The notes below the pieces were generated by a model. It did not search any database and was not told the DNA's origin. It worked only from the letters and a program-made list of their open reading frames with translations. A DNA stretch of 37,703 nt from positions 1 to 37,703 of the IMG/VR virus record IMGVR_UViG_3300023184_000290; one strand, written 5' to 3'. This DNA comes from a virus. Position numbers and translations under genes: made by a program. Of this stretch, positions 7,394 to 33,351 are shown one piece after another; position 1 is the first letter of the stretch, and the number at the start of each line of letters is the position of its first letter.

Positions 7394-10300
7394 TTATACT
7401 GAAGCGTCTCCAAATGGTGTAGGTGAAGGGTTTGTTGTTGTTGAGCTTGTGGCAGTATTTCTTTTCCAAGAACTTGCAATTTGAGTTCCAGCCGTGCCAG
7501 TTCTGCTTGCTCCAGTATACGGGATAACTCTAATTCTATACCAAGCATTTGATCCAGCTGGGGCTGCGGTTGTTGTAGATGTGACCGTTCCAGATCCACT
7601 ACTTAGTGTAAGTAAAGTGCTAGTTCCTGCTGTATACGTAGATGTTGGTGCAACTGTTGCGGAAGCTGCCCTATCAACACGAACATCACAAGAAACTGCA
7701 TTAGCGCAATTTATAGTGTAAGACATAAATGTTGGCCCAGCATTTGTATTTGTAGCTGAAATCTGAGTTACGGATGGAACTGGAACTGCAGCAGTTGTAA
7801 AAGTAACTGAGCCTGCGCCCGATGTACCAATGACATTTATTGCTCTTACATAATACGTATAGGTTGTTGAAGGAGATAGCCCAGTTATCGCCGAAGTTAA
7901 TACATTTCCTATATTTACATAACCGCTTGCTCCTAATTGGGCCTCGTAACTTGTAATTGCAGAACCACCATTTGCTGGTGCTGCCCAGCCAACAGTTGCT
8001 GTAGTAGTTCCAGGTCCGACAGTTACGGAAGGTGCGGGTGCGCTTGGTGCTGTTGGCAACGTATAATAAATTGCATATAATATTATTGAGGATGTAAATG
8101 CGTAGCTTGCTTGATTTGTATATACAACTGCTCCTGCAGTTGATGTTGCCCACCCAGAAAATCCTTTGCCCGATGGGGCTGTGAATCCAAATGCACTAAG
8201 ATTTGTTGCAGTATTTGCGGTTTGAGTATTCATTGTTCCTGTTCCACCATTTGCATCAAACGTTACTGTGAATGATTGTGCTGGTGTAGAAAACAAAGAA
8301 CCAGATGCCGACACGTAGTCACTTGTTGACGACGTTACTGTAACTGTTGGAGTGTAATTTGTACTTGCCGATAATCCTGTTACAGATGCCGAAGTTCCTG
8401 TTGTTCCAGTAAATGGGGTTCCAGTAGATCCTGGGACTGAAAGAGAATATGACGCTTGTGAAACTGATGTCCATGCAACCGATGCACTATTATATGTAAT
8501 TGAGCTTGTTGTTGGAGCCGTAACAGTTGGAACATAGTATGTGCCAGATGAAACTGATCCACCTGAACCAATTGCATTTACTGCACGAACCTGGAATGTA
8601 TTACCAGTTAATCCAGAAGCAGAGGTTATTGCATATGAAGTTGCAACAGATGCAGGACTTCTTGCAACCCAACCAGTGTTATTTATGTTAAATTCATAAT
8701 TAGTAATTGCTGAACCTCCATTTGATGGAGCTGTCCATGTAAATGTTTTGCTTGTTGTATTTAAATTTCTTGATAAACTTGTTGGTGTTCCTGGAACTGT
8801 TGCTGGTGCAACATATGTTACTGATCCACTGCCAGTAGCAGCTGGCGAACTAATTTTATCAACTGGGGCAGCTGAGGGAGATACAGCAGGTGCATATATT
8901 GAGCTTGTGCCTGTGTAATTAACTCCAGAATACACTGTGACAGATAAAGCTCTAACTAAAAGTCCAGAATTTCCAATAACTAATGTTGGTAAAGTTTCAG
9001 TTGTATCTGATACATTATAGCTTCCAGTAAGACCTCCAACATCGTAACTTAATTTAAAACTTCTTGCTCCAGATTGGGTCCATGATATAGTTGCCTTACT
9101 CTTTACTTTGTTTGTTACAGATGCAGTAACTGTACCACTTGTTGTTATAGCAAATGTTGTTGACGTTTGTATTGGATCAAAAATAGTTGTTCCACTTGCA
9201 ACACCAGTCAAAACAACTGTTGCGGTATCTGCGCTTGTTCCATTTGTCCAAGACACCAAGCCTGAATTATTTGAAGGGTTTGTTACGGTAACTCCTGACG
9301 GAGAATAATTTGTTGATGGTGTTGTGTCTGTCACGGCTAAATTATTTGCATTTAATGAAGCTATAATAACCCCAGATACTTGTGATGTAGTTTCAACTAA
9401 ATTATTTGTTATGACATGTAGCGTAAACCTATAGGTTCCAGATAACAAAACATCTGTTGTTACGTTAAGATTTGTTGCACTTAATGCCAAAGAGTTGGGG
9501 GCATCTACTAAAAAATAACTACTATATGTTGAGCCTGAAAGTTTTTCTAATGTTATAGATACTGTATATGTTGGATCGCTTGATGACGCTGAATAAGTCA
9601 CTGTTGCAGACCCTGCACCTGGAGTAACGGTAAAAGAAGAAATAGTTGGCGGAATATATGTATTTAATATTTCATTAGAATATATAAATAATGCGGATTC
9701 TCCATATCCATTTGTTGCCCAAACCTTTACCCTTATTTTTTTATTGGCAAAAGATGACATGTCATACGAAGACGTTGTTGCTCCAGATATATCTGCCCAA
9801 GTTGATCCCGTAGTATTTTGCTGCCATTGATATCTATATGAAGTTGGATTTTTAGTCCATGTCCCCGTATTTGTTACATTATAAACATATGATGACGCAC
9901 TACTTCTTGATATAACTGCTGATGCTGCTGTGCCTATTGGGTAATTACTTGAAACAAGCACGCCTGTACTTATTGACATAAAATCTGTACTGTTTGAATT
10001 TCTTACTCCATATACAATAAATCTAAAATAAATATCATTAACAGTAAATATATCTATTCCTGGTGTAGATGTTACTGTATTAAAAGCGCCCGTTGCTGGA
10101 TTTGAAATTGTTTGATATGCCGCTACGTCTGTCCAATCGGTGTAGACTGCTGAATCAAAATATGGGCACCATTGAAATTTATATTGAATAGTGTCATACT
10201 GGCTCCAATGATAATTTTTACCAGTAAGTATAACTGGATACGTTAAGCTGTTGGCTGATACCTGTACCCTTGATTCAATCATTGGAGAAACAACAACGGG

Positions 10301-10465
10301 CCAAAATTGTATCCAGCCAGTCAATGTCTTAATAAAAGCTTTAGCTGCAGTTTTCCAATCACCTGCTGTTGCAGTATTTGTAGTTTTAACTTTAATTTTT
10401 GTAGCAGATTTCCAATCGGCTGCTGAAGCAGATGAAGTTGTTTTTATCTTTAAACTAATTGGCAT
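7394..10465 (-). CDS. Large tail-fibre/adhesin-like protein with fibronectin type III and InlB-type repeats
   Basis: 1023 residues, rich in Thr, Ser, Ala and Gly. The N terminus has two copies of a short repeat ending in ADWKSATK and GDWKTAAK (about residues 3-43), then an aromatic patch (GWIQFWPVV), probably the virion-attachment end. Fibronectin type III domains follow; two are clear at about 555-645 and 803-891, both with the core TAPSNGGSAITNY or AAPANGGSAITSY. Between them (about 735-803) is a Listeria-Bacteroides (InlB B-type) repeat with TFDANGGTGTM and GFSGWATS. The C terminus is low-complexity (TSSTTTNPSPTPFGDASV). It probably reaches the host surface. No ribosome binding site is seen; TAAAAT ends 6 bases before the ATG. 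Confidence 0.82.
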   Translation of the reverse strand: MPISLKIKTTSSASAADWKSATKIKVKTTNTATAGDWKTAAKAFIKTLTGWIQFWPVVVSPMIESRVQVSANSLTYPVILTGKNYHWSQYDTIQYKFQWCPYFDSAVYTDWTDVAAYQTISNPATGAFNTVTSTPGIDIFTVNDIYFRFIVYGVRNSNSTDFMSISTGVLVSSNYPIGTAASAVISRSSASSYVYNVTNTGTWTKNPTSYRYQWQQNTTGSTWADISGATTSSYDMSSFANKKIRVKVWATNGYGESALFIYSNEILNTYIPPTISSFTVTPGAGSATVTYSASSSDPTYTVSITLEKLSGSTYSSYFLVDAPNSLALSATNLNVTTDVLLSGTYRFTLHVITNNLVETTSQVSGVIIASLNANNLAVTDTTPSTNYSPSGVTVTNPSNNSGLVSWTNGTSADTATVVLTGVASGTTIFDPIQTSTTFAITTSGTVTASVTNKVKSKATISWTQSGARSFKLSYDVGGLTGSYNVSDTTETLPTLVIGNSGLLVRALSVTVYSGVNYTGTSSIYAPAVSPSAAPVDKISSPAATGSGSVTYVAPATVPGTPTSLSRNLNTTSKTFTWTAPSNGGSAITNYEFNINNTGWVARSPASVATSYAITSASGLTGNTFQVRAVNAIGSGGSVSSGTYYVPTVTAPTTSSITYNSASVAWTSVSQASYSLSVPGSTGTPFTGTTGTSASVTGLSASTNYTPTVTVTSSTSDYVSASGSLFSTPAQSFTVTFDANGGTGTMNTQTANTATNLSAFGFTAPSGKGFSGWATSTAGAVVYTNQASYAFTSSIILYAIYYTLPTAPSAPAPSVTVGPGTTTATVGWAAPANGGSAITSYEAQLGASGYVNIGNVLTSAITGLSPSTTYTYYVRAINVIGTSGAGSVTFTTAAVPVPSVTQISATNTNAGPTFMSYTINCANAVSCDVRVDRAASATVAPTSTYTAGTSTLLTLSSGSGTVTSTTTAAPAGSNAWYRIRVIPYTGASRTGTAGTQIASSWKRNTATSSTTTNPSPTPFGDASV

Positions 10466-10471
10466 TTTATT

Positions 10472-10477
10472 ATTTTA
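10472..10477 (-). promoter_or_regulatory. Possible -10 box (TAAAAT) of a leaderless mRNA
   Basis: TAAAAT ends 6 bases upstream of the ATG of the large fibronectin-repeat gene, which has no ribosome binding site. The best -35 candidate at 17 bases (TGGATT) is poor. Confidence 0.3.
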
Positions 10478-10482
10478 CCATT

Positions 10483-13092
10483 TTATGCGTAAGTAATCCA
10501 GACATCTCCGATATTTCCAGCACTTACTGGGTCTGATGTATTTGTATATATATTTCTAAAATAAGCTCCAGTCAAGCTTACTTCAGATGCATTAGACCTT
10601 GCTGTATTTGAAAATGTTGCTGGATTATAAAATGTGGTATTTCCAGACATTTTAATTGTTCCAAATATTTCTGTTGTTCCACCTGTAGATACTGTAAAAT
10701 TAGTACCATTTATTTCTACTGATGGTGATTCTAAATAAATTACTTTGTCTGCTGATAATTTACCACCAAGCATTGACATTGTATTGCCTGTCCAGGTTCC
10801 TGGATTTCCAGTGGTTGAAATTGTTCCCGTAGATCCATCTAGCTGTAGGGATGGAACTGCTCCATTTTTATGAACTGATTTAATGTAAGTACCATCAATT
10901 GAAAATCCGCTGGCAGTTCCTCCGCTTCCGCCAATATAACCTGTTTCAGCTTTTATTGCACCTCTAATTTCGGCACCTTCTGCATAAAGAACACCTGTTA
11001 CGGATGATATGTTTGTGATAGGTCCTGTTACATTTGTAGTAGAATATGCATATATGCCATCTGTATTAATTTTAATTCCTGCATGTCCTGGGGATACAAC
11101 ATCTGCTGTTTTAAAAGAATTGGCAACAACAGTTCCTCCGCTTATTGTTCCAGTTTCTCCGTCTAAAATTAAAGTAGTTGTTCCTGCAGATGCCCCGCTG
11201 GATCTAATTTGTGCTCCAGATATGGACCAACCTTTATTTAATGTTCCATCTAAATTTTTTGAACCTATAAATCCGTCAATAGCTTTTATTGTTCCTGAAA
11301 GATCTACATCTACTGCAGTTAATTTTCCACCGTAAGTAATATTAAATGCATTCGACGATCTAGTTCCTCCAGACCAAATTACAACATCTGTTGATACGGG
11401 TGAATCTGGTGCATAAAATCCAACTTGATTTCCCTTATTAATTGAATTTGAATCTATTGTCCAACCTGCAATTGTTCCGTAATTTGCGGTTATGCTTCCA
11501 TCTATTGTTGATAATTGGACTGCCCTTTGTATTCCCCCAACGGTTTTCCTAACAATTAAACCTGTTGAGTTTAAAATATACCCATCTCCAGATAGCGTTC
11601 CACCAGTATCGGAAGAGGCCGTGGAAGTATTGCCTGTTATTGTTCCGCTATATATTGAGGCCCCGCTTGCTAAATTTATATTGCCGCTAAAAGTTCCTTT
11701 TTTTGCCTGAATATCTCCTATTACTGCAAGCGCTGATCCGTTCCATTGAACATAATTATCTGCACCACCAATTTTTAAAGAAGCACCTTGACTTGAATCT
11801 ATATACCAATAGTTATTTGTATTAAATACTAATCCTCTTTTACCAGTATCTACCCCATATCCAAATTTAAATGCTGTTGAGTCTGCATCTGTAATATTTG
11901 CTTTTGATCTAAAATATCCAGAAACGTCTACGTTTCCAGCAATATAAGGTGTTCCAGTAATTGTAACATTGGTAGTAGAGGCAACATATTGAGTAGAAGT
12001 ATTATTATACTCATCGTAAGTAGCAACTGCAAATTCATATTCTAAACCTGCTCCTAATCCAGATAGGTGGTATGTTGTTGCTGTCCCAGGAGAATCTACA
12101 TAGGAATATGCTGTTGGAGGTGTGGCAACCTGTCTCCATTTAATTCTATACCCACGTATTCCGTTTCCAGTTACTGCTGCCCAAGATATTGTAGCGTGTC
12201 CGTTGAATCCAATTACTCCATCTAAATCTAATGAGCCTACTGCTGTGACAGAAGCCACATTAGCTGGTCCATCTACATCAACTGTTATTGGACTATAAGG
12301 ACTAACACTTTTAACTGAAGAAAAATTTGAATTGGTTGCACTTAAAGTATAATATCTAATTTTAATATATTTAGTGCTTAATACTCCTTGAATAGCTATT
12401 GGACTTTTATCAATTGCTCTTTTAGTAAAAGTTCCTGATTGTGTATCTGACCACCAAACTTCTCCATAATTATATAGTCCTGATGCTATTTGTGCGTCAG
12501 TTAACGTCCAGGCTACTATGAATCCGTTGTCTGTTGCAGTAAGAGACCAAGCTGAATCGGGTATATCGCTTGAAGTTAATCCGTCTGTAAAAGCTGGAAT
12601 TATAAAAGATACACCATTACTGGCTGAATTAATATAATCTGTTCTTAAAAATCCAGTCAGTGATGTCTGAAAAACATTTCCAAAATTTAACATTATTAAT
12701 TCTTTTGATATAACAATTTTTTGGCTTGTTGTTGTTAAATCTTTTTTATGTCCAAACGGTACTGTTTTAGATACGCCCAAAACATTTCCTGTTAATTCAA
12801 TTTGAAAACCAGTAGAGTACGTTGGGCATGTCCAGGAAATTTCTAGGTTGGTTCCTACCCACGCTGCTACTATATTTGTTGATTCTGCTTTTGGAAGAGG
12901 TATTGTTTCTAATATAAATGTATTAGACCAAAAATTTTTATATTTTAAATTTAACGCTGGGTCTTCAAATTCCCATTGAAATTTAAATCCATATACAGTT
13001 TCTGGCAGCAAGCCCTTGATATCAATATCATAATAATTTTTATCAGATGGGTCAAAATACTGAGTTGTCTGTAAATCTGGAAAGTCTGCCAT
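10483..13092 (-). CDS. Tail-tip protein with fibronectin type III domains and repetitive beta C-terminus
   Basis: 869 residues. Residues 1-165 form a beta-sandwich-like N terminus (GLLPETVYGFKFQWEFED). Two fibronectin-type domains follow at about 170-275 and 280-380, the second with ISWAAVTGNGIRGYRIKWRQ and LSGLGAGLEYEFAVATYDEY. The remaining 490 residues are repetitive, Gly- and Ser-rich beta sequence (SGTITGNTSTASSDTGGTLS, then AETGYIGGSGGTASGF), as in the distal part of phage lambda J-like tip proteins. It ends NIGDVWITYA. It follows the baseplate genes and precedes the large fibre gene, so a tip or receptor-binding role is likely. Start by ATG two bases after the previous stop. Confidence 0.78.
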   Translation of the reverse strand: MADFPDLQTTQYFDPSDKNYYDIDIKGLLPETVYGFKFQWEFEDPALNLKYKNFWSNTFILETIPLPKAESTNIVAAWVGTNLEISWTCPTYSTGFQIELTGNVLGVSKTVPFGHKKDLTTTSQKIVISKELIMLNFGNVFQTSLTGFLRTDYINSASNGVSFIIPAFTDGLTSSDIPDSAWSLTATDNGFIVAWTLTDAQIASGLYNYGEVWWSDTQSGTFTKRAIDKSPIAIQGVLSTKYIKIRYYTLSATNSNFSSVKSVSPYSPITVDVDGPANVASVTAVGSLDLDGVIGFNGHATISWAAVTGNGIRGYRIKWRQVATPPTAYSYVDSPGTATTYHLSGLGAGLEYEFAVATYDEYNNTSTQYVASTTNVTITGTPYIAGNVDVSGYFRSKANITDADSTAFKFGYGVDTGKRGLVFNTNNYWYIDSSQGASLKIGGADNYVQWNGSALAVIGDIQAKKGTFSGNINLASGASIYSGTITGNTSTASSDTGGTLSGDGYILNSTGLIVRKTVGGIQRAVQLSTIDGSITANYGTIAGWTIDSNSINKGNQVGFYAPDSPVSTDVVIWSGGTRSSNAFNITYGGKLTAVDVDLSGTIKAIDGFIGSKNLDGTLNKGWSISGAQIRSSGASAGTTTLILDGETGTISGGTVVANSFKTADVVSPGHAGIKINTDGIYAYSTTNVTGPITNISSVTGVLYAEGAEIRGAIKAETGYIGGSGGTASGFSIDGTYIKSVHKNGAVPSLQLDGSTGTISTTGNPGTWTGNTMSMLGGKLSADKVIYLESPSVEINGTNFTVSTGGTTEIFGTIKMSGNTTFYNPATFSNTARSNASEVSLTGAYFRNIYTNTSDPVSAGNIGDVWITYA

Positions 13093-13093
13093 T

Positions 13094-13990
13094 CTAGAAA
13101 GTTATCTCCATTCTATATTCTATATCGGATGGTCTTCCAGAAACTTTTACAAGTGGAGTAGATAGTACAGATCTAGAAATTAAACCGTAGCTTGGATCAA
13201 ATGTATCTTCATCGTTTATTCTAAGGCCTTCAAGGTTTATTTTTGTTGTGCCCGAAGATTTTGCAGTTGCAGAAATTCCTATTTTATAAATAGAATCTAA
13301 ATTTGGAGTACCACTTGAAAGTAATGTTGAAAACATTATATTAGATATTTTATTACCTGTTGTTGCTTCGCCTGTAATTGTAGTATAAAAATAATCAGTA
13401 TCGGAGCTATAAAATTTAATTTTAATTGAAGAAAGATTTGTATCTTCTTGATTATATGCAAGAACAACTGTATCGTTAGCGCTATATCCTGATATATCTA
13501 AATTTGCTATTGTAGAAATATATTCTTTTGTTTGAGATGAAGTAGCTGTAATTGGTATTAATGCATTTCCAATTCTGGGAAATGGGGATACTGACGGACT
13601 GCTAATTATGTCAGCATAACCGTATGGAGATGTTGACTGTGTCCATAACAAATTATTTTCAAAATCAGATAGAATTTTATCATCAAAATTATTTTTAGAT
13701 GTTCTTGATCCTGGATAAATACCAATTTCTGAAATAATTCCAGCCATGTCTTGCGGCAAAGTTGTCTGATATATTACAGCATATGTGCTAGTTCCATTTG
13801 ATTGTGTTTGAATATCAATGCTAGCAAAATCTGCAGGAAGTCTATAAAATTCAAAACCTAGTCTGCTATTTGTATCGGATAGTGCATAATCTGTATTATT
13901 TGCTATACCAATTGCTAAATCTTGCTTAGAAAAAGAATTTAATCCTGCTAGGTAAGATGTTATAAATCTTTTTCCGAATCTTGTAATCAT
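13094..13990 (-). CDS. Baseplate/tail protein
   Basis: 298 residues. It starts MITRFGKRFITSYLAGLNSF and is beta-rich throughout (for example GTSTYAVIYQTTLPQDMAGI, EIGIYPGSR), without membrane segments. The N-terminal motif resembles phage baseplate or fibre-connector proteins, but I cannot name a family. It is coupled to its neighbour by TAATG and lies two bases from the tip gene, so it should be made with the tail tip. Confidence 0.7.
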   Translation of the reverse strand: MITRFGKRFITSYLAGLNSFSKQDLAIGIANNTDYALSDTNSRLGFEFYRLPADFASIDIQTQSNGTSTYAVIYQTTLPQDMAGIISEIGIYPGSRTSKNNFDDKILSDFENNLLWTQSTSPYGYADIISSPSVSPFPRIGNALIPITATSSQTKEYISTIANLDISGYSANDTVVLAYNQEDTNLSSIKIKFYSSDTDYFYTTITGEATTGNKISNIMFSTLLSSGTPNLDSIYKIGISATAKSSGTTKINLEGLRINDEDTFDPSYGLISRSVLSTPLVKVSGRPSDIEYRMEITF

Positions 13991-14340
13991 TATAGTGTTC
14001 TCCTTATATTCATTCCCTTTACAATTTCACCCGTAGAGTTTCTAACCTGTATTGTTAATTTAATTGTTGGAGGAACTGTAGTATAGTCTACAGATTGTTC
14101 CCCTTTTATTGAAATGTCTCCTAACGATGGTATCATAGAAGAGTCAACTGACCCATCGTCTCCGCCGTCTCCATTACCATCGTTGCCTCCGCCAACACCA
14201 CTTGTTTTAGCTATTTTTACCATTAAAGGTAAATACCCTGTGGCTATTCTATAAGATAAGGGGTCCAGGTCTTTATTAGCAACCCTTAAATACATGTAAG
14301 GAGACTGATCTATTTGATTGCTGGAAATCTTATTTGTCAT
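13990..14340 (-). CDS. Small tail protein with Gly/Asp linker, 116 aa
   Basis: Two structured parts are joined by a Gly/Asp-rich linker (GVGGGNDGNGDGGDDGS, about residues 48-64). The N-terminal part includes YLRVANKDLDPLSYRIATGY and the C-terminal part is beta-like (IKLTIQVRNSTGEIVKGMN). Linkers of this sort join domains in baseplate components. There is no ribosome binding site; TATAAT ends 6 bases before the ATG. Function unknown beyond its place in the tail gene cluster. Confidence 0.68.
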   Translation of the reverse strand: MTNKISSNQIDQSPYMYLRVANKDLDPLSYRIATGYLPLMVKIAKTSGVGGGNDGNGDGGDDGSVDSSMIPSLGDISIKGEQSVDYTTVPPTIKLTIQVRNSTGEIVKGMNIRRTL

Positions 14341-14346
14341 ATAAAA

Positions 14347-14352
14347 ATTATA
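14347..14352 (-). promoter_or_regulatory. Perfect -10 box (TATAAT) of a probable leaderless mRNA
   Basis: TATAAT ends 6 bases before the ATG of the 116-residue tail gene in a 15-base intergenic gap without a ribosome binding site. No convincing -35 box is present at 16-19 bases. Confidence 0.4.
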
Positions 14353-14355
14353 CCA

Positions 14356-15717
14356 TTATTGATAAGATATTGATCTTGCATCAATTGTGGTATCTAACCC
14401 CCTATCAAACTTTTGTATTAGGCCATTAACTAAAAATTTTTCTGTTCCATCAAGCCCTTGCCTTGAGTATTTAATAGATATTATATCTCCTACTTTAATT
14501 TTTGGATTTATAATAGCATTCATTGAGATTGTCATTTGTTGAGTTGAACATTGTGTATTAATCCATTGTGCAAGAGCTTTTGCATCAGATGGTCTTTGTA
14601 TCCAGGTTGACTCAAAAGTAATTGGTTCCTGTGTTGAATACTTGCTTACTTCTTCATCTGAATAAATGACTGGGCTAGACCTAACTATATTATTTGCTAC
14701 GGCACTTACTTTAGAATAAGTGCTAGAAAGTAGAGGAATGAATGTACCAGATGTATTTAATATATAGGCCTTAGCATTAAAGGCCGTCAAGTTGCTATCC
14801 AATATCTCTACAAAATCATTTAAATTTGTTGACATATATTTGGGCTGTACTGGCACGGTTGAATAATCTTGATTAACAAATCTTATTTCCCTAGCAACTG
14901 GACCAAATTCTTCAACATGGACATCTGTTGTCGCTACATGTAGAGTATTTATTCCAGACAGCCACATATCTCCGTATGCAATTTGTGCAGATATACCAGC
15001 AAACTGATTGCCATATAAATTTTGAATAGTAGCAGTATTATATTCAGCGGCAGTTATTTTTTTCAAATAAATATAATCAAAGCTTACTATGCCAAGTGAT
15101 GCAAATAAACCCATATTGGATGTTGCTGGAAGTATATTCCCAGCAGAACTATCTGTTGCTGTAATTCTATGTCCGTTTATATATGCAACAATAGTTGTTT
15201 TAAGTGTTTCACATTTTATATTAACATCAATTTTATATGATTCACCTTCAATAATACCTATTACATTTTTTGATTTTGTTATTGATTGTGAATCTGGTAC
15301 TACACTAACTATAGATTTCCCTAAGGAATTTATTTTAACTTTTAATATTTGAAATTCATTTTGTCCTTGTGCGCCAGCAAGCGTAGAAGATTTAATGTTT
15401 AATACATAGCCCTGTGTCCCAGTCGAGTTGGCAAATATTAACATTCCTCCAGAAGAATTACCTACTGAGTCTGATTGTGGTTGAAAAAACATTGTGGTTC
15501 CACAAGAATAGTAACCTGAGTTTGGAGAAGGTATTGTAAGTCCTAAATTTTTAATTGCACATGATACGCTATTTGGGTCACTATCAACAGAATTAATTGT
15601 CATTAAAGATTTACTAATAACAATTCCATCTTTTGTAAATGAGGGACTAAAATCAAGTGCACTTTTTTGAGTTGCTGTTGCAGTTGTTTGAAAAAATATT
15701 GTACCGTCTAATGGCAT
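14356..15717 (-). CDS. Tail/baseplate protein with concanavalin-like (LamG-type) middle
   Basis: 453 residues from the ATG at 15717, which overlaps the upstream stop as TAATG; a GTG at 15732 would add five residues and is less likely. The N-terminal half looks like a LamG/concanavalin jelly roll (FSPSFTKDGIVISKS, MLIFANSTGTQGYVLNIKSS, VAYINGHRITAT). The C-terminal part (about 365-453) resembles the domain that ends many siphovirus baseplate proteins: KALAQWINTQC, INPKIKVGDIISIKYSR, KFLVNGLIQKFDRGL. The two halves suggest a carbohydrate-binding insertion in a baseplate protein. Confidence 0.7.
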   Translation of the reverse strand: MPLDGTIFFQTTATATQKSALDFSPSFTKDGIVISKSLMTINSVDSDPNSVSCAIKNLGLTIPSPNSGYYSCGTTMFFQPQSDSVGNSSGGMLIFANSTGTQGYVLNIKSSTLAGAQGQNEFQILKVKINSLGKSIVSVVPDSQSITKSKNVIGIIEGESYKIDVNIKCETLKTTIVAYINGHRITATDSSAGNILPATSNMGLFASLGIVSFDYIYLKKITAAEYNTATIQNLYGNQFAGISAQIAYGDMWLSGINTLHVATTDVHVEEFGPVAREIRFVNQDYSTVPVQPKYMSTNLNDFVEILDSNLTAFNAKAYILNTSGTFIPLLSSTYSKVSAVANNIVRSSPVIYSDEEVSKYSTQEPITFESTWIQRPSDAKALAQWINTQCSTQQMTISMNAIINPKIKVGDIISIKYSRQGLDGTEKFLVNGLIQKFDRGLDTTIDARSISYQ

Positions 15718-17747
15718 TATGAGGTCACCCACTTTATTCCGCTATATCCATTCCATCCATTTGAAATTGATTTTAGATCTACTGGATGTGCTTTTACTAC
15801 AGTATTAAAACATCCACGAGTTTTAATCCTATATTTTCCTAGATTTTTAACACTTCCAATTACTGCAAGTGATGAATATTTACTAATGTCACCTGGGCTG
15901 GCAATATCGACTTGAATTGCAGACCCTCCTGTTAATGGAATATATTCATACTGAATTGAATCAAATTCAATAACTTCTGCATCTAATAAAAAGTATCCTG
16001 CAAATGCATAAAGTGATGATTGGGTTGATAAATCGCTTGCAGTAATGTCAATCATATCTAAATTTATATAGCTACATCCAGAGTGGTCTGTGGAGTGATC
16101 TAATAGTGTGGCTGTAGATACGGCGGAAATAGATAGAGTCTCTTTTAATCCTGCTGCTGCTAAATATGTGTTTGTATACTCAAGAACTTCTTTACTACTT
16201 TGATCATAACCCGCAAGTCCTGTAGGTGAATACCTAACCCTAACTGAAGATACCCCTGGGATTTTCTTTTTTGATAATGTAAGTATATTTGGTATATTTT
16301 TGATTCCACTAATAGTTTCTTCCGCATCTCTAAAAATATAATCTGTTAATCTATCTGAGTCAAAAATATAACTTCTAGTATAAAATTGCAGTATATTGTC
16401 ATCATCCATGAAGCAAATCATTTGCGAGTCTCTGCATAAATCTTGTATGACAGACCATGCGGTCTCCGTACCGTCGGTCCACCAATAATCTGGTGTGAAT
16501 ATAGAAGATTCTTTTTCTTGAGAAGGATTAGTATTAATTGCATAATTATTAAATCCAACCGAATCAAGGACTCTTCTTATAATTGCTGTTACTGTATAAC
16601 CAGTACATAATATTTGTGGACAAAATATATCTTGTAAAAATTTTGCGCTATCAAGTGCAGTTATATCTATATTGCCATATTCTGAAATATCCCAGCTATC
16701 TATATAAAAATAGCCCTGATTTAACTTAAAATATTTCCCTACTGAATCAGTTAAATCGCCATTGGAATTATATATTTTTAAAAATGGTTTTATTTCTGCA
16801 TTTTTAACTAAGTATATTTCATTTGAATCTAGCTGATCTTGGCTATCTCTTGAATAAGTATTAAATTTAATATGGCTTGCTGTCAAATCAATTAATTGCA
16901 ATGACAATGAATTAGCAGTTACATTTCCTACAGGCAAAAGATCTTGTGTGGTATTTGAACTTTCTTTTGAGGTAGTAAATGAAACAAAATAATCTGTTAA
17001 GTCATAAACTAAATGCGGTGCTATTTCTATAACTCCAATATACCCACCAGGATTTACTGCGTGTAGGCTTAATGATGATAATGTTTTTGGTGTTGCTGTT
17101 AAATTTAAATCTGATTCATTTAAACTCCAAACAGTTCCTGTCCAGTATATCTCTACTGATCCCTTATTTATTTCATTGCTGTTTACTGATGTTCCATCTT
17201 TTAATAACTGCTTATTGCCATATATATACCAGTGACTGGGGGTTGCATGAGATACTTCAAATTTTACTACAATTTTATTACATAGAACATCTTTAGGATA
17301 CGTTGGCTTATCTAATGTAGAATTATTATAATATACAGTTATAGATGCATTAGCATCTTTTGCTGTAAGCCAATACTTGTACTTTACTTCATCCCCAGGG
17401 TAGTAGGTTCTGTATGGGAAATCATAATTTACTCCTTTGGGATCCCCCCATGAATTTTGTGGGATATCTCCCAATATTGCATATTTAATACCTGCACCTT
17501 GAGGACGATTTTGTTTAATAATAGAATCGACTGGAAATAATTTTTTAAATACCTGCTTTGAATTTACTTGTGGTGATACTAGTGCTATTTCACTAGTAGA
17601 GATACTATCTTTATTTGTAAATGATTTAAAACAATTATCATTAAATACAATCATTGAATTAACATTTATATCCATAATTGCAGATGAATTAATTTTTAAG
17701 GTTGTATCTTTATTAAATGATTCTAAAGCAACATCTAGAGCTGTCAT
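15717..17747 (-). CDS. Minor tail/baseplate hub protein
   Basis: 676 residues, immediately after the distal-tail gene, where siphoviruses place the tail-associated hub. Beta-rich with no transmembrane segment. The most diagnostic-looking part is DYWWTDGTETAWSVIQDLCR and MICFMDDDNILQFYTRSY near residues 415-460, which resemble the DUF-type core of phage hub proteins that read as a domain within a lambda L/J-like region. I cannot assign catalytic activity and see no lytic motif. Coupled to both neighbours by TAATG. Confidence 0.75.
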   Translation of the reverse strand: MTALDVALESFNKDTTLKINSSAIMDINVNSMIVFNDNCFKSFTNKDSISTSEIALVSPQVNSKQVFKKLFPVDSIIKQNRPQGAGIKYAILGDIPQNSWGDPKGVNYDFPYRTYYPGDEVKYKYWLTAKDANASITVYYNNSTLDKPTYPKDVLCNKIVVKFEVSHATPSHWYIYGNKQLLKDGTSVNSNEINKGSVEIYWTGTVWSLNESDLNLTATPKTLSSLSLHAVNPGGYIGVIEIAPHLVYDLTDYFVSFTTSKESSNTTQDLLPVGNVTANSLSLQLIDLTASHIKFNTYSRDSQDQLDSNEIYLVKNAEIKPFLKIYNSNGDLTDSVGKYFKLNQGYFYIDSWDISEYGNIDITALDSAKFLQDIFCPQILCTGYTVTAIIRRVLDSVGFNNYAINTNPSQEKESSIFTPDYWWTDGTETAWSVIQDLCRDSQMICFMDDDNILQFYTRSYIFDSDRLTDYIFRDAEETISGIKNIPNILTLSKKKIPGVSSVRVRYSPTGLAGYDQSSKEVLEYTNTYLAAAGLKETLSISAVSTATLLDHSTDHSGCSYINLDMIDITASDLSTQSSLYAFAGYFLLDAEVIEFDSIQYEYIPLTGGSAIQVDIASPGDISKYSSLAVIGSVKNLGKYRIKTRGCFNTVVKAHPVDLKSISNGWNGYSGIKWVTS

Positions 17748-18226
17748 TATATTTCTTCCAGAATTATTTGAACATTCCAGTGTGGTTGTATGCCTCTTTT
17801 TTGAATAGTAAATGAAGCCTGTGAAAATGAAACTGAATATACTTCATAATCTGATGCGCTTTCAGTTTGATCTGTTCCATTTTTTGCCAAATTTATTTTA
17901 ATGTTAAATGGAAGTTTTCCTTCTGGGCTAGCAAAAAAAGATCTTATGTCTTCTGCACCCCAGCCACCATCTACAGTTAAAGTTCTATAAGAAGGAAGCA
18001 TATCCCATGAAACAGTAAATGTTTTTTTATCTGCGACCCAAAATTTTCTAAGCGTTCCATTAGATGTTCTATTTTTAGACTCTATTCTTTCTGTAGCTAT
18101 ATCAAATTGAGATCTATTGTGCTCTGTAATTTTATTCCATTTAACCGTATTCCCAGCTGGTGTCGCTAAAAGATCTTTGGCCTCTATTGATAAAATTGAA
18201 CCTCTTGGCATTGTTACATAGCCCAT
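17747..18226 (-). CDS. Distal tail protein (Dit-like)
   Basis: 159 residues encoded directly after the tape measure, the usual place for the distal tail adaptor. MPRGSILSIEAKDLLATPAG and KFWVADKKTFTVSWDMLPSY are typical of short beta-sandwich tail proteins, and the C terminus (GIQPHWNVQIILEEI) ends a beta strand. It would cap the tail tube and join it to the hub. It is shorter than the two-domain Dit of Gram-positive phages (about 250 aa), so the galectin-like half is missing. Start overlaps the tape-measure stop as TAATG. Confidence 0.68.
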   Translation of the reverse strand: MGYVTMPRGSILSIEAKDLLATPAGNTVKWNKITEHNRSQFDIATERIESKNRTSNGTLRKFWVADKKTFTVSWDMLPSYRTLTVDGGWGAEDIRSFFASPEGKLPFNIKINLAKNGTDQTESASDYEVYSVSFSQASFTIQKRGIQPHWNVQIILEEI

Positions 18227-21200
18227 TATTTAGACCTCGAATTTCCCAGCATAGCTGAATTTATCATATTCTTTTTATCAAGCATATCTACTACCATTGT
18301 AGCAATCATTTTTTCATCTTGGTGCGGCATAGTGTTTATTACCATTCCTCCAACATTGTAGTGATGAGCCGTTGATGAACCACCTGCTGGTAATGGATTT
18401 ACCATTGAAGTTGAAGTACTTGGTATATTGTATTTTGGTCCAGCTAGTCCTCCCATTGCAAAATGCGGAATATGACCACTAGGTAAAGTTCGTTTTGCTT
18501 CAAATACATACTCGTCTAGTAGTTTAGAATAATTTTTTCCACCAATCCATTGATTACCTACAAATGATCCCTCTCCTGGAATTTTATGCGCTAACGGATT
18601 AATTTGTTTTAAAATGTATTCTGTAAATGGCGCAATATACATTTCTTTGTCTGATAAACTTGCCCTATTGCCTCCTATGCCCAAATCCATTAAATTTGGA
18701 ATACCCTTAACATTTTTATCAAATATAACTTTTGCTACGGCATCAGTTTCTCCTCCAGCCGTGCCTCCCTGATGAGCTATGTTTTTAGCCCAATCTAAAC
18801 TATTTGTAAAAGATTTAGCTTTATCTGGTATCCATGATTGTCCTGGCTTTAATGCTGGAGCAAACCATTTAAATGGTGCAGATGCTTCGATATCACTATA
18901 TCTTGGCTCTGGTAATCCAGATTGTTTAATTAAATCTACTGCATTATCTTTCCAACCACTTGCAAAATGAGTCCATGGGGCTTCGTCAACCTTAGATGTA
19001 TGACCCCATTTATCCATCCACTCTTTTCCATTTTGTAGTGCCCTGGCTGGTCTTGTTTGATAGCCTACAATATCCGCCATGTCTTTCATGCTTAACCCTC
19101 TATACATTGTTTGGTTTTCACCAATTGATTTTCTGGTTAACATCGTGTTAATAATTCCCCAGTCATCTTGTTGTGCAAACATGGGTTTTTGTCCATACAT
19201 TTCAAGTGCGTTTATTCCGCCTGGGGGAGTATCTGTTTTTCTAGCCAATTTAAGATTTTTTAACATAGAAAAATTACTTTCTTGATAGTGACTTATAACA
19301 TTTTGTGCATGCTGTGGGTCTGCCCAAGGATTATTTTTATAAAACTCTCCAGTTTTTATTTGGCTAATTTCAGATCTATTTGTTGCCATTGCAGTTTGAT
19401 AAGCTCTAATAGATTTTATTGTATCTTCAGATAATGATTTATTTGTTAAAGCTAAAGTTGAAAGCTTGGAAGATTGGGCTAATGCCTTTATTGGCATTCC
19501 TAACTTATTACCCATTCCCATTCCCATAAAATTAAGTGGAAATAAAGCTGTGGCTAAATTATCTCCAGCTTTACCAAGACCAGCAAGTTTTCTTAATACT
19601 GATGCTGTTCCAAACATTTCAGCGGCAGGTGTATCTTTAGAATTAAATCCCGATACATATTTTTGAAACCAATTTTTATGTTTTGCCTCTCCACCTTTTC
19701 CAAACTTTTGAGCATTTAGTCCATCAAAGAAATCTTTACCATATTGATTTACTGCTGCTGCACGAACTACATATTCTCCATTTGAAAGGTATGCTGGAAT
19801 TGAATCAGATGTACTTGTGCCTGGGCCTCTAACTGCACCAATACTTCCTATTCCGTATTTTTTGACATTTCCTCCCATTGCAAATTTATGTGCAGATGGT
19901 TTAAATATTATTGTGCTAGCCCCTGTTGAATCTTTAACTAATTTTACAACTTCATATCCAGTTCCACTTGAATCTTGAAAGAACGCCCCTGGCTCTATTT
20001 TTTTATAGCCTCTATCATATATAGCTTTTTGCACCCAAGAGTCGTCTGCTGTAATTAATTCTCCCTTACCCGCCTTGTACATTACTGGCTTTCCATCTTT
20101 ATATCCTGTTGTTAATTTTGATGCGGGTGAAGTTTCAATTTTAGCATTAACTTTTGGAGAGTCTTTTACTTGTGCTGTATTATATGAATTTGTTGCTGTA
20201 ATAATTACCTTATCTGCTTTAATACCATTTTTATATGCATCTGTTGCTTTAGATATTGCTTCTGCAGCAATTTCATCAGCAGATTTAGTTCTTGTTCCAA
20301 CGCCAGACTTAGAGCCGCCAGGAAGTCCATATATTGCACTTGCTGTTGGCTTAATGCCCATTGATTCAGGAGTTAAAGATTTTGATTTTAATGCTTGAAC
20401 TAATGCGGCAATATCATTTGTGTAAGCAGAACTACTTAAATATTTATCTCCTAGATCTGCAATATTTTTTTGTATATCAGTAAATGATTTTGCAACTCCG
20501 TTAAATGCTTGTACCAATATGTCTAATTTAGCATTTGCTGCTGCTAATTTTTCTGCTGCTAAAGATGCTGCGTCAGATACTGCTTGATTTGCTGAGTCAA
20601 TTGTTTTTGCTTTTGCCTGTAAGGGTTCAACCTTTGCAATCCTTGCTTGCTCAATTGCATTAATTGCTGCTGTTTTTTGTCTTGCATTTGTTAATGACTG
20701 AATGTCTATTTGAGCTTGTGCAGCTGCGGCCATATCACCAGAAGCAACGGCTTGTTGATATATAATCTGTGCTTTTTTAATTTGAAGATTTTCATCTTCT
20801 ATTGCATTAATATCCTCTAAGGCCTTCTTTCTTGCTTCAGCTTCTTTATTAATAGCATCTATTTGTGCATTAATTGCATCAAGGGCTTTTCTTGAATCAA
20901 TTTGTTTTTGAGCAGAAATTCCAGCGGACTCTAGTGCGTATTGTTTAATCTTTTTTTGCAACGCATCTATTTGTGCATTTGTTTTATACAAAATTCCAGC
21001 ACCCGTACCATCTTTTGCTGGGGCGGCAATTAATGCGGCTTTAGCTGCTGCAGCAATTGCTTCATTTAATACCTGAAGAGCAGAGGCTGCATCACCACTC
21101 ATTCCATGTATATCCGCTCTTGTTCCCTCAATAAGAAGGTTTAGTTTGGCCCAAGCTGTAGTGGTATTATCAGTTGTATTAAGGAATCCTGCCAAGTCTG

Positions 21201-24200
21201 GATTAATTTTTGCAATCTGTGCAATATTTTTTTCAGTTAAATTATTTTGTTTTACTTTACTATTTTCAATCGCTTTTAAAACTTCCTGCTGTGCTTCAAG
21301 TTGAGTAATGGCAATTGTATTTCCAGTTTTGTCTGCTTTTGCAAGTGTTTCAGATTTTGATTTTATTTCATCTATTGCAGATGAAATTCCTTGTAAAGTT
21401 ATAAAGAATTGATTTGCTTGATTTTCACCAGGTACATTTAGGCCTTGTCCAATAGCTAAGGTTTTAATATTTTGAATGGCTGCCGATTTTTGATCGTTAA
21501 CTGAAGCAAACCCTAGTTGTGATATTGAAGATACGCCTTGTCCATATTTATTAGAAGCCTCTATTAATGCATATACTTTTTTGGTTGCTTCTTCAGCAGA
21601 CATTCCAGCTGTAATAAATTGAGCTTTTAAGCTAATTGCAAGCTTTCCAATATCTTGTTTTTTAGTTGCATTTATTAAATTAATATACTCTGGAAGAGTT
21701 TTCTTTACTTCTTCCTTTAATTTTCTATATTCCTCTATTGTTATTTTTAATGGGGTATTAGATAATGTTGTTGTTGCATATATTAATCTATTAGTTTCAG
21801 CTAAAGCTTTTTGATTTGCTACAGCATTTTTAATTTCAGAAGACAAAACGTTTATACTTAGGCCCGCTTTTTTGGCAGAGTCAGCAGTCATTCCATAAGC
21901 TAATGCTTGTAGCTTTAATGAATCTTGATGCTTTTTATACATAATTAATGCTGATTGAAGTCCTATTGCTACAACTCCTATTGGGCCTGCAAATCTTGAT
22001 GCAAATAAACCAGCTCTGCCAAGTGCTGGCGCAATTCTTGATAACGCTCCCGTGGATTTTGCTGCTGATTCTGATAAAGTTTCAAGCGCTGGAATTGCTT
22101 CATTTCTTAAACTTCTAGAAACTAGTTTAGTTGCTGCACTTTGTGCTGCAAAGAATCCACCCATTTGAATTGCAGTATTAGCAATTCCATTTGTAACTCC
22201 CATTCTTGATGCAATATTACCTGCAACTTCTTGACCAACAATTCCTGCGCCAAATCCAGCTGCGCCTCTACCAAACTTTTTAGCCATTCCGCCAACGCCA
22301 AAGTGTTGCACACCAGCTCCTGGAACCATTCCCCCAGAATTCATTCCAATTATTCCGCCTCTATTTCTAAACATATGTGTTGCTCTACGATTTTCTACTG
22401 CAGTAATTCCTGCATTAAATAATCTTTTTAGTAGAGGTGGTGGGGTTGTAGTATGTGCAAAAAATCCTTTAGCTTGTGGAGACTCTAGTGCATCTAATTT
22501 TATTGTTTTACCATTATGAGTTATGGATTTTAATTTCATACTTGGGCTACGCATTGGCTCGCCGCTTGTTCTTAAATTTTCTGAAACTGCATATGCTGGC
22601 TCTGATGAAAATTTATCCCAAAATCCTAATGCATCTGGATTATTAAATAAATGTCTTTTCATAACTGTATTTGATGCAGCCCAATATGGATTTGAAGCAT
22701 CTTTTATTTTTACAAAACTATCTAAATGTCTACGGTATAAAGAATCAATTTCTTTTTGTAATCCCATTGCATCTTTTTCATTAATTATTCCAGCTTTTGC
22801 AAGAGCAGATAAAAATTGATCAGTAGATCCAACATGCTGGTGTTTAGATGCGGCCATAGCTGCCTTATAAACTTCAGTTGGCAAACCGTTTCCTGCCAAT
22901 TCTGAATTTAATTTAGACTTTGAAATTTTTCCATTTTTAACTAAATCTTTATACTTTTCATTATGAATAATTTTAGGATCTGTAATTTCATTTAAATAAA
23001 CTCCTGCAGTGCCTCTTAATCTATATGAACCTCTGCCCCCAGCAAATCTTTCTGGAAATAAAGAAGACATTTGTTCATTTGTTACACCACTAATTCTTGG
23101 AACGGTAGTTGGAACCATTGGTGCAAAATCTACGGCATCAGATGAACCCGTGCTTTGATATGGACCCTTACTTCCAGGTCCATTTATTTGTTGTAGCAGT
23201 CCTAAATTTTCTCTTGTTGCTTTTGCATTTACAACAAATTCTCCTGGTGTAAGCATAGCTGGAACCGTATCTGTTCCCATAGGCTTAAACTCTGGCTCTC
23301 CACTTCCAAGAACTCTATAGACTGGTCCACCCGTTGCAAATCTACGCATAGTTTTTGGAACTGTTGTTTCAATACTAAATGGCGCTCCAGATGTTTTAAC
23401 TCCGAGGCTTCTTGCAATTGTATCAACTAGGCTAGCTGTGGGGCCTTTATGAAACATTTCTTTCATATTAGATTTTCCGCCTGCACCAACAACGGGCTGT
23501 GAAGTTAAAGGCACTGTTGTAAGGTTAATAGTTCTTGACATGCTTGATGCAACCATGGTTGCTGTTTCTATCATCATTGCTTCTACATTAGCATTTAAAG
23601 CAATAATTTTTGCTCTTGCCATATCTACTGTTATTTTACCTGCTTGTAATTGAGAAACAATTGCTTGTGATTCTGTTGCTGCTAATGAGGTAAGTTGCGC
23701 CATAGGTGGCAGCATTGCTTGATAAGATGCTGCCAATTCTGCAGTTACCGTTTTATTAGTAATTAATTCTGTCTTTAACATTGCAAGCTCTGCTTCAGAC
23801 TGAGTAGCTATTGCAGCATTCATTGCATGCCATTTTGCTGCTTCTCCTGCAACAACTCCAGTAGATACTCCATTTACTGCTGTTACGCCATTTATTAAAG
23901 GCATATTATTATGCATATAAGATTGTGGATTTGCACCAATTTTTTTGTTTACTGGGTTTGGCCCAGGAACAACTGAAAATATACTTTGATTAGATCTTTG
24001 TTCTGGAGACATTAATGCAGTTGGGTTCATATGAACCATGTCTCTTGTATAAATAGGTCCTGCTAAAGGATGATTTTTTACTGCCATTCTTTCGTTATTT
24101 ACAGCAAGGGCTTCGCTAGACATAACAGCATTTCCAGCAACTGTACTTATTCCACCACCAGTTACTGTTGTTGCAGCTAATGCTTTTTGTTGTAATATTA

Positions 24201-26076
24201 CAAATGAATTTGCAAGGGCATTTACTGCATCTGCAAAAGTCATTGCTGCTTTTGCGTCGCTATAAAAAACTTGCTCTATTGTTTTGCCTGCATCAGCTGC
24301 AGCCATAATTTCTGGTGTAAGTAATTTAAATCCTGAAGTTCCCTTAAATAATGATTTTAAAGAAAATACTCCCTTTACAATGTATCCAAAGAAGTTTCCA
24401 AGAACACCCGTTAACATAATAAGTGGTCCCGCTACTGCTGTTAATCCGCCAACCAATGTTAATATCTGTTTAATTGGACCTGGTAAATTACCTACAAATT
24501 TTACTATGCCATCAACTGTTTTTAAAACAAAAGTATTAATTACTAAAAACTTTTCTCCAACTGCAGCAAGGTCTGCTTTTACGCTTTCAAGTGCTATTTT
24601 ATATTTACCTGAAGCAGATTGTGTCATTTGTGTTAATTCTCGTGCGGAAATACTTGCAAGATCTGTTGTGCTTGCTTTCATTAAATCAAGGACTTTAAGT
24701 GTTTGTGATCCTTGTTTTCCTAAATTTTCAAATAAGGCTGACATTCTTGCAAATTGAAATTTACCAAATAATTGTTCAATTGCTCTAGATTTACTTAAGG
24801 GATCAAGGGTATCAAGAGATTTTTGTAACTCCATTATAGTACCTGTTAAATTACCAGCATTTCTAGTTATAATACCACCTAGATCAATTCCAAAACCAGT
24901 AAACATCTCTTTTGCAACTTTGGTTGGATTAATTAATGAAGCTAGAGCTGATTTAATTGCATTTGCTCCTTGAGCTGCTTCAACTCCGCCCTCTTTCATT
25001 GCGGTCAAATAAAGCGCAAGATCTTTTACGCTGCCTCCGAGTGCTTGTACTACTGGACCAGCCTTGGGTATGGCTTGAGTTAAATCTGCAAGGCTTGTGG
25101 AAGTCTGGTTTTCAACAGCATTAAGAAAATCAATTGACTGTGTGAGCTCGTCTGTATTCTGCTTAAATGTATTTTGTATAGCAAGTGTTGCTTTCATTGC
25201 ATCTTGTCTATCAATTTCTCCAAGAACTGCAAGTCTGGATGTCTGAATTGTTGATTTAATTAAATCTTGTCCCTCTTTTCCTGTGGCTGCAATATCTGCA
25301 GCAAGAGAGATTGTTTCTTTATACGAAGTTCCATAACTTGCTGCAAGCATTTTAGCAGTTGAAGATACATCATTTCTTATTTTTAACAAGTCTGCTGATG
25401 ATGTTGCTGTTAATCCGCCATACACTTTAGTAAGTCTTACTAGCTCCTGATCTGCCTCTCTAAATGCTTTTGCTGCAGCTGTGCCAAACATCATAAGGGG
25501 AACTGTAAGTCCAACTGTTAACTGTCTACCTGCCCACTGTGTATTTTTTCCCCAATTAACTAGTTGAGTTGAGCCATCTTTCATAATTTTATTCATGATT
25601 GATTGTTCTTGAGCTAGGAGGGCTGTTTTATTTTTAATTGCATCAAGGCCTGTGCCAACCATTACATTGTATTGCATTAAACCTTGAGCATTTCTGCCCA
25701 ATGGCTTAATAATTGCATTTTCAAGCATTACTTGTTGTTTAGCTAAATCTTTTACTAATGTACTTGTTTTTTTAGCATGTCCTTGCCATGTATTAAAGTA
25801 CTGCCCTAGCTTCATTCTTCCTGAATCTAGGTTTTTACCAAACTGATTTACATCTCCCGATAGGGTTACAAAATGTGTAGAAAATTGTCCTGTAGACCGC
25901 ATAGTTTCAGCAAAGGATCTATTCATTATCCCCATCTGATTAGATAGATTTGAATTTAATCCTATTGTTGTTGCTTGCAGTTTTATTAAGCCCGCAGTAA
26001 CCGCATTGAGCTGGCTTGTTAAAGCAGAAAAATTAGCTGTAGCGGTTATATTGGTATTAATATTTTGTTCAGACAA
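18226..26076 (-). CDS. Tape measure protein with embedded ADP-ribosyltransferase-like domain
   Basis: 2616 residues, the largest gene here, located between the tail chaperone and the distal tail gene. It sets tail length and is ejected with the DNA. The N-terminal 500 residues match the phage tail tape-measure core, followed by a hydrophobic stretch (about 515-575, ILTLVGGLTAVAGPLIMLTG). A Gly-rich 'IPA.L..GE.VV.A' module occurs twice, near residues 933-958 and 2085-2113. A second hydrophobic span is near 1350-1375 and a long Ala/Gln coiled coil spans about 1700-1950. Two inserts look like cargo rather than tape: residues 970-1235 (unassigned) and about 2210-2500 (ADP-ribosyltransferase-like). 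Translation starts at a TTG with AAGGAG 11 bases upstream. At about 1.5 angstrom per residue the tail would be 300-390 nm, depending on whether cargo counts. Confidence 0.93.
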   Translation of the reverse strand: MSEQNINTNITATANFSALTSQLNAVTAGLIKLQATTIGLNSNLSNQMGIMNRSFAETMRSTGQFSTHFVTLSGDVNQFGKNLDSGRMKLGQYFNTWQGHAKKTSTLVKDLAKQQVMLENAIIKPLGRNAQGLMQYNVMVGTGLDAIKNKTALLAQEQSIMNKIMKDGSTQLVNWGKNTQWAGRQLTVGLTVPLMMFGTAAAKAFREADQELVRLTKVYGGLTATSSADLLKIRNDVSSTAKMLAASYGTSYKETISLAADIAATGKEGQDLIKSTIQTSRLAVLGEIDRQDAMKATLAIQNTFKQNTDELTQSIDFLNAVENQTSTSLADLTQAIPKAGPVVQALGGSVKDLALYLTAMKEGGVEAAQGANAIKSALASLINPTKVAKEMFTGFGIDLGGIITRNAGNLTGTIMELQKSLDTLDPLSKSRAIEQLFGKFQFARMSALFENLGKQGSQTLKVLDLMKASTTDLASISARELTQMTQSASGKYKIALESVKADLAAVGEKFLVINTFVLKTVDGIVKFVGNLPGPIKQILTLVGGLTAVAGPLIMLTGVLGNFFGYIVKGVFSLKSLFKGTSGFKLLTPEIMAAADAGKTIEQVFYSDAKAAMTFADAVNALANSFVILQQKALAATTVTGGGISTVAGNAVMSSEALAVNNERMAVKNHPLAGPIYTRDMVHMNPTALMSPEQRSNQSIFSVVPGPNPVNKKIGANPQSYMHNNMPLINGVTAVNGVSTGVVAGEAAKWHAMNAAIATQSEAELAMLKTELITNKTVTAELAASYQAMLPPMAQLTSLAATESQAIVSQLQAGKITVDMARAKIIALNANVEAMMIETATMVASSMSRTINLTTVPLTSQPVVGAGGKSNMKEMFHKGPTASLVDTIARSLGVKTSGAPFSIETTVPKTMRRFATGGPVYRVLGSGEPEFKPMGTDTVPAMLTPGEFVVNAKATRENLGLLQQINGPGSKGPYQSTGSSDAVDFAPMVPTTVPRISGVTNEQMSSLFPERFAGGRGSYRLRGTAGVYLNEITDPKIIHNEKYKDLVKNGKISKSKLNSELAGNGLPTEVYKAAMAASKHQHVGSTDQFLSALAKAGIINEKDAMGLQKEIDSLYRRHLDSFVKIKDASNPYWAASNTVMKRHLFNNPDALGFWDKFSSEPAYAVSENLRTSGEPMRSPSMKLKSITHNGKTIKLDALESPQAKGFFAHTTTPPPLLKRLFNAGITAVENRRATHMFRNRGGIIGMNSGGMVPGAGVQHFGVGGMAKKFGRGAAGFGAGIVGQEVAGNIASRMGVTNGIANTAIQMGGFFAAQSAATKLVSRSLRNEAIPALETLSESAAKSTGALSRIAPALGRAGLFASRFAGPIGVVAIGLQSALIMYKKHQDSLKLQALAYGMTADSAKKAGLSINVLSSEIKNAVANQKALAETNRLIYATTTLSNTPLKITIEEYRKLKEEVKKTLPEYINLINATKKQDIGKLAISLKAQFITAGMSAEEATKKVYALIEASNKYGQGVSSISQLGFASVNDQKSAAIQNIKTLAIGQGLNVPGENQANQFFITLQGISSAIDEIKSKSETLAKADKTGNTIAITQLEAQQEVLKAIENSKVKQNNLTEKNIAQIAKINPDLAGFLNTTDNTTTAWAKLNLLIEGTRADIHGMSGDAASALQVLNEAIAAAAKAALIAAPAKDGTGAGILYKTNAQIDALQKKIKQYALESAGISAQKQIDSRKALDAINAQIDAINKEAEARKKALEDINAIEDENLQIKKAQIIYQQAVASGDMAAAAQAQIDIQSLTNARQKTAAINAIEQARIAKVEPLQAKAKTIDSANQAVSDAASLAAEKLAAANAKLDILVQAFNGVAKSFTDIQKNIADLGDKYLSSSAYTNDIAALVQALKSKSLTPESMGIKPTASAIYGLPGGSKSGVGTRTKSADEIAAEAISKATDAYKNGIKADKVIITATNSYNTAQVKDSPKVNAKIETSPASKLTTGYKDGKPVMYKAGKGELITADDSWVQKAIYDRGYKKIEPGAFFQDSSGTGYEVVKLVKDSTGASTIIFKPSAHKFAMGGNVKKYGIGSIGAVRGPGTSTSDSIPAYLSNGEYVVRAAAVNQYGKDFFDGLNAQKFGKGGEAKHKNWFQKYVSGFNSKDTPAAEMFGTASVLRKLAGLGKAGDNLATALFPLNFMGMGMGNKLGMPIKALAQSSKLSTLALTNKSLSEDTIKSIRAYQTAMATNRSEISQIKTGEFYKNNPWADPQHAQNVISHYQESNFSMLKNLKLARKTDTPPGGINALEMYGQKPMFAQQDDWGIINTMLTRKSIGENQTMYRGLSMKDMADIVGYQTRPARALQNGKEWMDKWGHTSKVDEAPWTHFASGWKDNAVDLIKQSGLPEPRYSDIEASAPFKWFAPALKPGQSWIPDKAKSFTNSLDWAKNIAHQGGTAGGETDAVAKVIFDKNVKGIPNLMDLGIGGNRASLSDKEMYIAPFTEYILKQINPLAHKIPGEGSFVGNQWIGGKNYSKLLDEYVFEAKRTLPSGHIPHFAMGGLAGPKYNIPSTSTSMVNPLPAGGSSTAHHYNVGGMVINTMPHQDEKMIATMVVDMLDKKNMINSAMLGNSRSK
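18577..19449 (-). other. ADP-ribosyltransferase-like (R-S-E) domain inside the tape measure
   Basis: Residues about 2210-2500. Helices (SEDTIKSIRAYQTAMATNRS) precede MYRGLSM with Arg2326, the arginine motif. Then comes the STS-type strand KSFTNSLDWAKNIA (Ser2422 to Ser2426, with the usual downstream Ala), and then SDKEMYIAPFTEYIL with Glu2478 as the candidate catalytic glutamate. Order and spacing fit the R-S-E class of exoenzyme ARTs. The residue two before the Glu is Asp2476 rather than Glu or Gln. Flanked by Gly-rich tape-measure modules. This is motif reading, not a profile search. Confidence 0.68.
22372..23169 (-). other. Unassigned insert in the tape measure (residues about 970-1235)
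   Basis: After the first Gly-rich module the sequence changes from Ala/Gly/Gln tape-like to a mixed, globular, His-rich composition: KHQHVGSTDQFLSALAKAG, YRRHLDSF, KRHLF, THNG and AHTT. It ends before another Gly-rich stretch (RGGIIGMNSGGMVPG). I do not recognise a fold. Its position, parallel to the ART-like insert, suggests a second cargo domain. Confidence 0.45.
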
Positions 26077-31971: not shown

Positions 31972-31985
31972 TTTTTTACCTACCC

Positions 31986-33299: not shown

Positions 33300-33306
33300 A
33301 TGCTTA

Positions 33307-33335: not shown

Positions 33336-33351
33336 ATAGCGGTTGAGTAAA

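Follow-up and report, generated by a model that had tools for sequence, protein, structure and literature searches.

A predicted ADP-ribosyltransferase domain carried as exchangeable cargo within a phage tape measure protein

The virus record IMGVR_UViG_3300023184_000290, which we analyzed over its full length of 37,703 bases and call the window here, encodes a 2616-residue tape measure protein (TMP; 18226..26076, minus strand) that contains a predicted ADP-ribosyltransferase (ART) domain near its C-terminus. Homologues, an AlphaFold2 model, and structure comparison support that residues ~2213-2540 (18457..19440, minus strand), a span that includes a set of N-terminal helices, adopt an ART fold of the R-S-E class (VIP2/C3/iota-type). 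We estimate a probability of roughly 0.7 that this domain is an exchangeable mono-ADP-ribosyltransferase cargo, ejected with the TMP, that modifies a host molecule by means of NAD+. A domain of this kind had been proposed at residues ~2210-2500 from the letters of the window alone (the original prediction); its start agrees with our delimitation, but its end fell short, as the domain reaches ~2540. The accompanying proposal that the domain is built in frame into the TMP, and is not a separate gene, was borne out: the frame runs without a stop across all 2616 residues, and the same arrangement recurs in eight further contigs. The domain ends ~75 residues short of the TMP C-terminus and is followed in the frame by a Gly-rich module and the C-terminal tail (18229..18456, minus strand).

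Searches with the single domain came back empty in Pfam, PHROGs, the PDB (by sequence), phage records, and viral contigs. Using the conserved TMP core as query, we obtained 80 related TMPs, and 24 more loci were found with the leader module that stands ahead of the cargo (19516..19683, minus strand; NWFQ.YVS ... LFPLNF.GMG) and is common to TMPs with other cargo at the same position, designated site B below. Among these leader-found loci, L089 (phmmer E 7e-29) and L090 (2e-13) contained distant relatives of the ART domain. An alignment of the window with both sequences then led to L106, L107, L108, L109, and L112, and a later scan added L118. The domain is therefore present in nine contigs, the window and eight divergent relatives, every time in a TMP frame, and no free-standing copy was seen among them. 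L106, L107, L109, L089, L090, and L112 also align with the window TMP outside the ART domain; L108 and L118 have lost their 5' ends at the contig start, and their frames run on into TMP-type C-terminal tails. A scan of bacterial genomes with alignment A2, which is sensitive to rather close relatives only, returned no relative.

Alignment A3, comprising eight sequences at 23-67% pairwise identity, was the basis for invariance counts and for the AlphaFold2 model. Invariance is limited to 22 of the 173 columns that are fully occupied, and these include all four candidate catalytic positions (p about 2e-4 by chance): Arg2326 in strand 1 (MYRGLS; 19099..19101, minus strand), Ser2422 and Thr2424 (18805..18813, minus strand; codons 18811-18813 and 18805-18807), and the candidate catalytic Glu2478 (KEMYIAPFTEYIL; 18643..18645, minus strand), each conserved in 8/8 sequences. 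R2326 is the one invariant Arg out of four in fully occupied columns, and E2478 is one of two invariant Glu out of eight. The sole other is E2522, within an invariant Asp2521-Glu2522-Tyr2523 (DEY; 18508..18516, minus strand) on the last predicted strand of the domain. The Arg, Ser, and Glu had been picked from one sequence before any alignment was made, so their subsequent invariance is a fair prospective test. MYRGLSM (R2326), SFTNS (S2422), and KEMYIAP (E2478) all lie at the positions claimed for them. In the case of the proposed STS element, the strand and the Ala-rich helix after it stood, while the exact motif is S2422-x-T2424. Between the Arg and this motif, six sequences carry an insertion of ~70 residues, giving an R-to-S spacing of 95-112; L090 and L112 are without it, and their spacing is 26. 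The ART domain is under purifying selection, with dN/dS values of 0.26 (L090/L112) and 0.29 (window/L106) for the closest pairs and higher values in more diverged pairs, where dS nears saturation.

E2478 is placed at the start of a strand, resembling the Glu of the ADP-ribosylating toxin turn-turn (ARTT) loop. In that loop, ExE marks Arg-modifying and QxE Asn-modifying enzymes. The residue at -2 from E2478 in alignment A3 is D/A/A/A/A/Y/S/S, which gives neither pattern. As this position is variable, the ExE/QxE rules do not apply and do not predict the acceptor, and we assign the domain to neither the Arg-specific nor the Asn-specific subgroup.

The AlphaFold2 model built on alignment A3 (pLDDT 68.3, pTM 0.61) has helices ahead of a strand at 145-150, on which R2326 is model residue 149. 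The SxT motif is on strand 244-247, followed by a helix at 250-259, and strand 301-304 starts at E2478. R2326, S2422-x-T2424, and E2478 are thus found on three predicted strands in the order of the R-S-E class, which has its Arg on strand 1, an S-T-S-type motif on strand 2, and the catalytic Glu on strand 5; this order, with their invariance, would place R2326 and E2478 in the active site. In the Foldseek comparison that the original prediction had suggested, the model did match an ART fold: ART exoenzymes headed the PDB list (E 1e-5 to 5e-4), and the matches in BFVD were phage and giant-virus ARTs. VIA-align re-scoring of Foldseek's own list, a result that speaks to the rows in that list and leaves other families aside, put VIP2 with NAD first (1qs2; Z 14.1, 156 residues, 2.8 Å) and C3bot2 second (Z 13.8), and all 50 entries listed were ARTs. 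TM-scores normalised by query were low (0.24-0.32), probably due to the long low-confidence ends and the insertion in the model.

The carrier is a phage tape measure protein, as identified by PF10145 (E=1.2e-24), whose conserved TMP core match covers residues 240-438 (24763..25359, minus strand), and by phrog_10030 (E=4.4e-118). Its gene lies in a tail cluster: minor tail protein, tail proteins, and fn3 proteins follow at 7394-17747, the minor tail and tail protein genes themselves occupying 13094-17747, and portal, protease, and head proteins precede it at 30898-34938. No sheath was recognised among the window proteins scanned, a subset of the frames, which fits a siphophage. By tblastn, the best cultured relatives of the TMP are those of Streptomyces phages, a likeness that hints at an actinobacterial host.

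We compared the window TMP with the 80 related TMPs and found a conserved N-core (1-970) and middle (1250-2120), with one hypervariable site between them (site A, 191-1181 aa) and one after the middle (site B, 0-1527 aa). The 53 non-redundant TMP frames without an open 3' end measure 2705 +/- 502 aa in full, against 1778 +/- 117 aa for the core. At site B, the window TMP carries the ART domain, which, within the sequence known for each, was found in 0/80 of the core-related TMPs. Identity between the window and L106 is 61% in the ART domain, 44% in the TMP N-core, and 21% in the middle, and TMPs with N-cores ~67-76% identical to that of the window are without the domain. Since the domain is closer than its carrier, and close carriers do not have it, it has been exchanged between carriers and moves independently of them. 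The site A insert of the window TMP (residues about 1000-1240; 22357..23079, minus strand) has relatives in L026, L067, L081, and L003 but gave no family match.

The tail tube of T5 is filled by its TMP, and particles that have emptied out have lost it along with their DNA (PMC11313276). For JBD30, the tube is occupied by a TMP trimer whose C-terminus sits in the baseplate core and is first out; the trimer has been proposed to be ejected and to make up a channel (PMC11445458). We take the window TMP, from its family, to be a virion component, and the ART domain, in frame within it, would be part of the virion as well. Packed in the tail tube, the TMP would be expelled at infection ahead of or together with the DNA, in ~3 copies per virion by analogy with other siphophages. 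The short distance between the ART domain and the C-terminus would put it near the tail tip, so that it would leave early, and the way other siphophages eject their TMPs (PMC11313276, PMC11445458) suggests that it could reach the host cytoplasm. There, we infer, it would be catalytically active, transferring ADP-ribose from NAD+ to a host protein or nucleic acid, and in the first moments of infection this would benefit the phage by redirecting host machinery or disarming a defence. Three copies per virion is little, and an enzyme would be more fitting than a binder.

Several observations weigh against an injected ART. No ART-family sequence match was found in Pfam, NCBIfam, PHROGs, or PADLOC; PF03496 (ADPrib_exo_Tox) was absent from all 50 records scanned (the window and 49 related) at E up to 10, and we do not file the domain there. 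A PDB profile search with the domain gave no ART match, and hhalign of the family against T4 Alt/ModA/ModB was not significant, which is no surprise with so few sequences. The model is of moderate confidence, built on just eight sequences, and the active-site placement of R2326 and E2478 follows from invariance and strand order. The ARTT loop lacks its customary first Glu/Gln. Delivery would amount to just ~3 copies, and a folded domain would have either to fit the tail lumen or to unfold in passage. Finally, the TMP is also produced late, and an enzyme carried on it could act in the producing cell.

This last point leads to an alternative in which the ART acts late in infection and not after injection, in shut-off, competitor exclusion, or the modification of phage proteins. 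As a late structural protein, the TMP is synthesised in the cytoplasm, where NAD+ is present. However, a free gene would suffice for late action, and fusion inside the TMP fits delivery better. The OmpA-like domain that neighbours the ART in L106 also suits delivery, as does a place near the C-terminal end, which leaves the tail first (PMC11445458), and we consider late action unlikely. A further alternative accepts the ART fold but takes the domain to be catalytically dead or purely structural, a tail-tip spacer or binding module. The incomplete ARTT loop is in line with this, as are the frequent occurrence of folded modules at the TMP tip and the predicted nature of the ART activity. Yet the Arg, SxT, and Glu stay fixed among sequences of 23-67% identity in which the majority of other positions differ, exactly these residues would hardly have been kept in a dead domain, and the dN/dS values of 0.26-0.29 argue in the same direction, leaving this explanation improbable. 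Lastly, the fusion might have arisen in assembly or as a single accident of the window contig, an idea to which the lack of a close relative in direct searches had lent some weight. Eight independent contigs from different metagenomes have the same domain in their TMP frames, which rules out an artefact, and we regard this reading as negligible.

Injected phage ARTs are already known, from Alt, MuF-VIP2, and polyvalent proteins, and the new element in an injected TMP-borne ART is the carrier. T4 Alt accompanies the phage DNA into the cell, where it acts on host RNA polymerase by modifying it. Like Alt, ModA, and ModB, the window domain is a phage ART by prediction; Alt, however, is a separate capsid-packaged protein, whereas the window domain is fused to a TMP and has no significant profile match to these three. 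The MuF-VIP2/MuF-ART proteins, such as those of Microbacterium phages and AXL1 (PMC7302621, PMC9206674, PMC9503650), resemble the window protein in having an ART of the Alt/VIP2 fold class on a virion structural protein, proposed to be injected. As presented there, their carrier is a head protein and sequence profiles recognise them, in contrast to the TMP carrier and the lack of a profile match here. Where a survey of viral NAD/ADP-ribose systems treats the contexts of ARTs, it names MuF, portal, and head (PMC9503650). Polyvalent proteins are likewise large, virion-associated, and multidomain, with ART, kinase, and GNAT domains, but the modules reported alongside those domains are MuF, portal, and RNA polymerase, and tape measure is unmentioned there (PMC5512222). 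The tapemeasure-related effector Tme of a Streptomyces davawensis contractile injection system is TMP-like, with a C-terminal enzymatic effector that is loaded; it is a nuclease of a bacterial contractile injection system, however, and neither a phage TMP nor an ART (PMC11126660). T5 pb2 and certain other TMPs have an envelope-acting enzymatic domain near the tail tip, much as here, but in pb2 this portion of the TMP is a peptidase (PMC11445458), and the window domain would be an NAD-using effector. In the open papers searched, we came across no ART placed in a phage tape measure, subscription papers and preprints lying outside that search.

If the proposed injection is correct, the TMP, an expelled tail component, would join the carriers of injected effectors, which so far are mainly head proteins, and whether TMP domains reach the cytoplasm becomes a testable question. 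We regard it as an even bet that TMPs in this clade serve generally as delivery vehicles, and that the domains exchanged at their two cargo sites (ARTs, kinase-like or acetyltransferase-like domains, and others) are injected with the DNA in a manner like polymorphic toxins. The cargo sites would then be a pool of domains with possible effects on hosts or their defences during the opening minutes of infection. Tail length would be predicted to track the ~1780 aa of the conserved core rather than total TMP length (1616-3961 aa).

Other cargo was noted in the related TMPs. OmpA-like domains above the Pfam cut-off are present in L032, L034, and L062, and beside the ART domain in L106 (8045-8932), and possibly serve as wall anchors during penetration. 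Kinase-like cargo, recognised by the pattern D/HxD...N + DFG/DWG, occurs in L082, L090, L091, L099, L101, L034, and L062. Where PF03109/PF01636 matched, E values were 2.8e-4 to 1.8e-3, under the curated cut-offs, so we label it kinase-like only; a profile comparison of two kinase-like classes with each other was not significant. A further domain at site A, with 58 matches in L048 (9545-10279), L016, L102, and other TMP loci, has conserved K, E, GD.D....N, and D and is possibly kinase-like, with no family match; related copies stand after the site-B leader in L082-L089. A possible GNAT acetyltransferase (L105:6250-6681; PF13508, weak at E 0.076) has a relative in L107. The cargo class 'YHGG...FDLFTT...YA' is found in 16 loci (e.g., L017, L039, L055, L062, L007, L032, and L082). 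By eye it resembles an H-Y type ART, but its AlphaFold2 model reached a pLDDT of 35 and its profile gave nothing convincing against the PDB, and we dropped that assignment and left the class without identification. The kinase-like, GNAT-like, and 'YHGG' classes are leads rather than identifications, and the same applies to the site-B cargo of L093, L036, L091, and L095, in which an Arg / S-T / Glu pattern can be discerned by eye (LFKGVR...TYFSTN; MFRAVR...YWSLSS).
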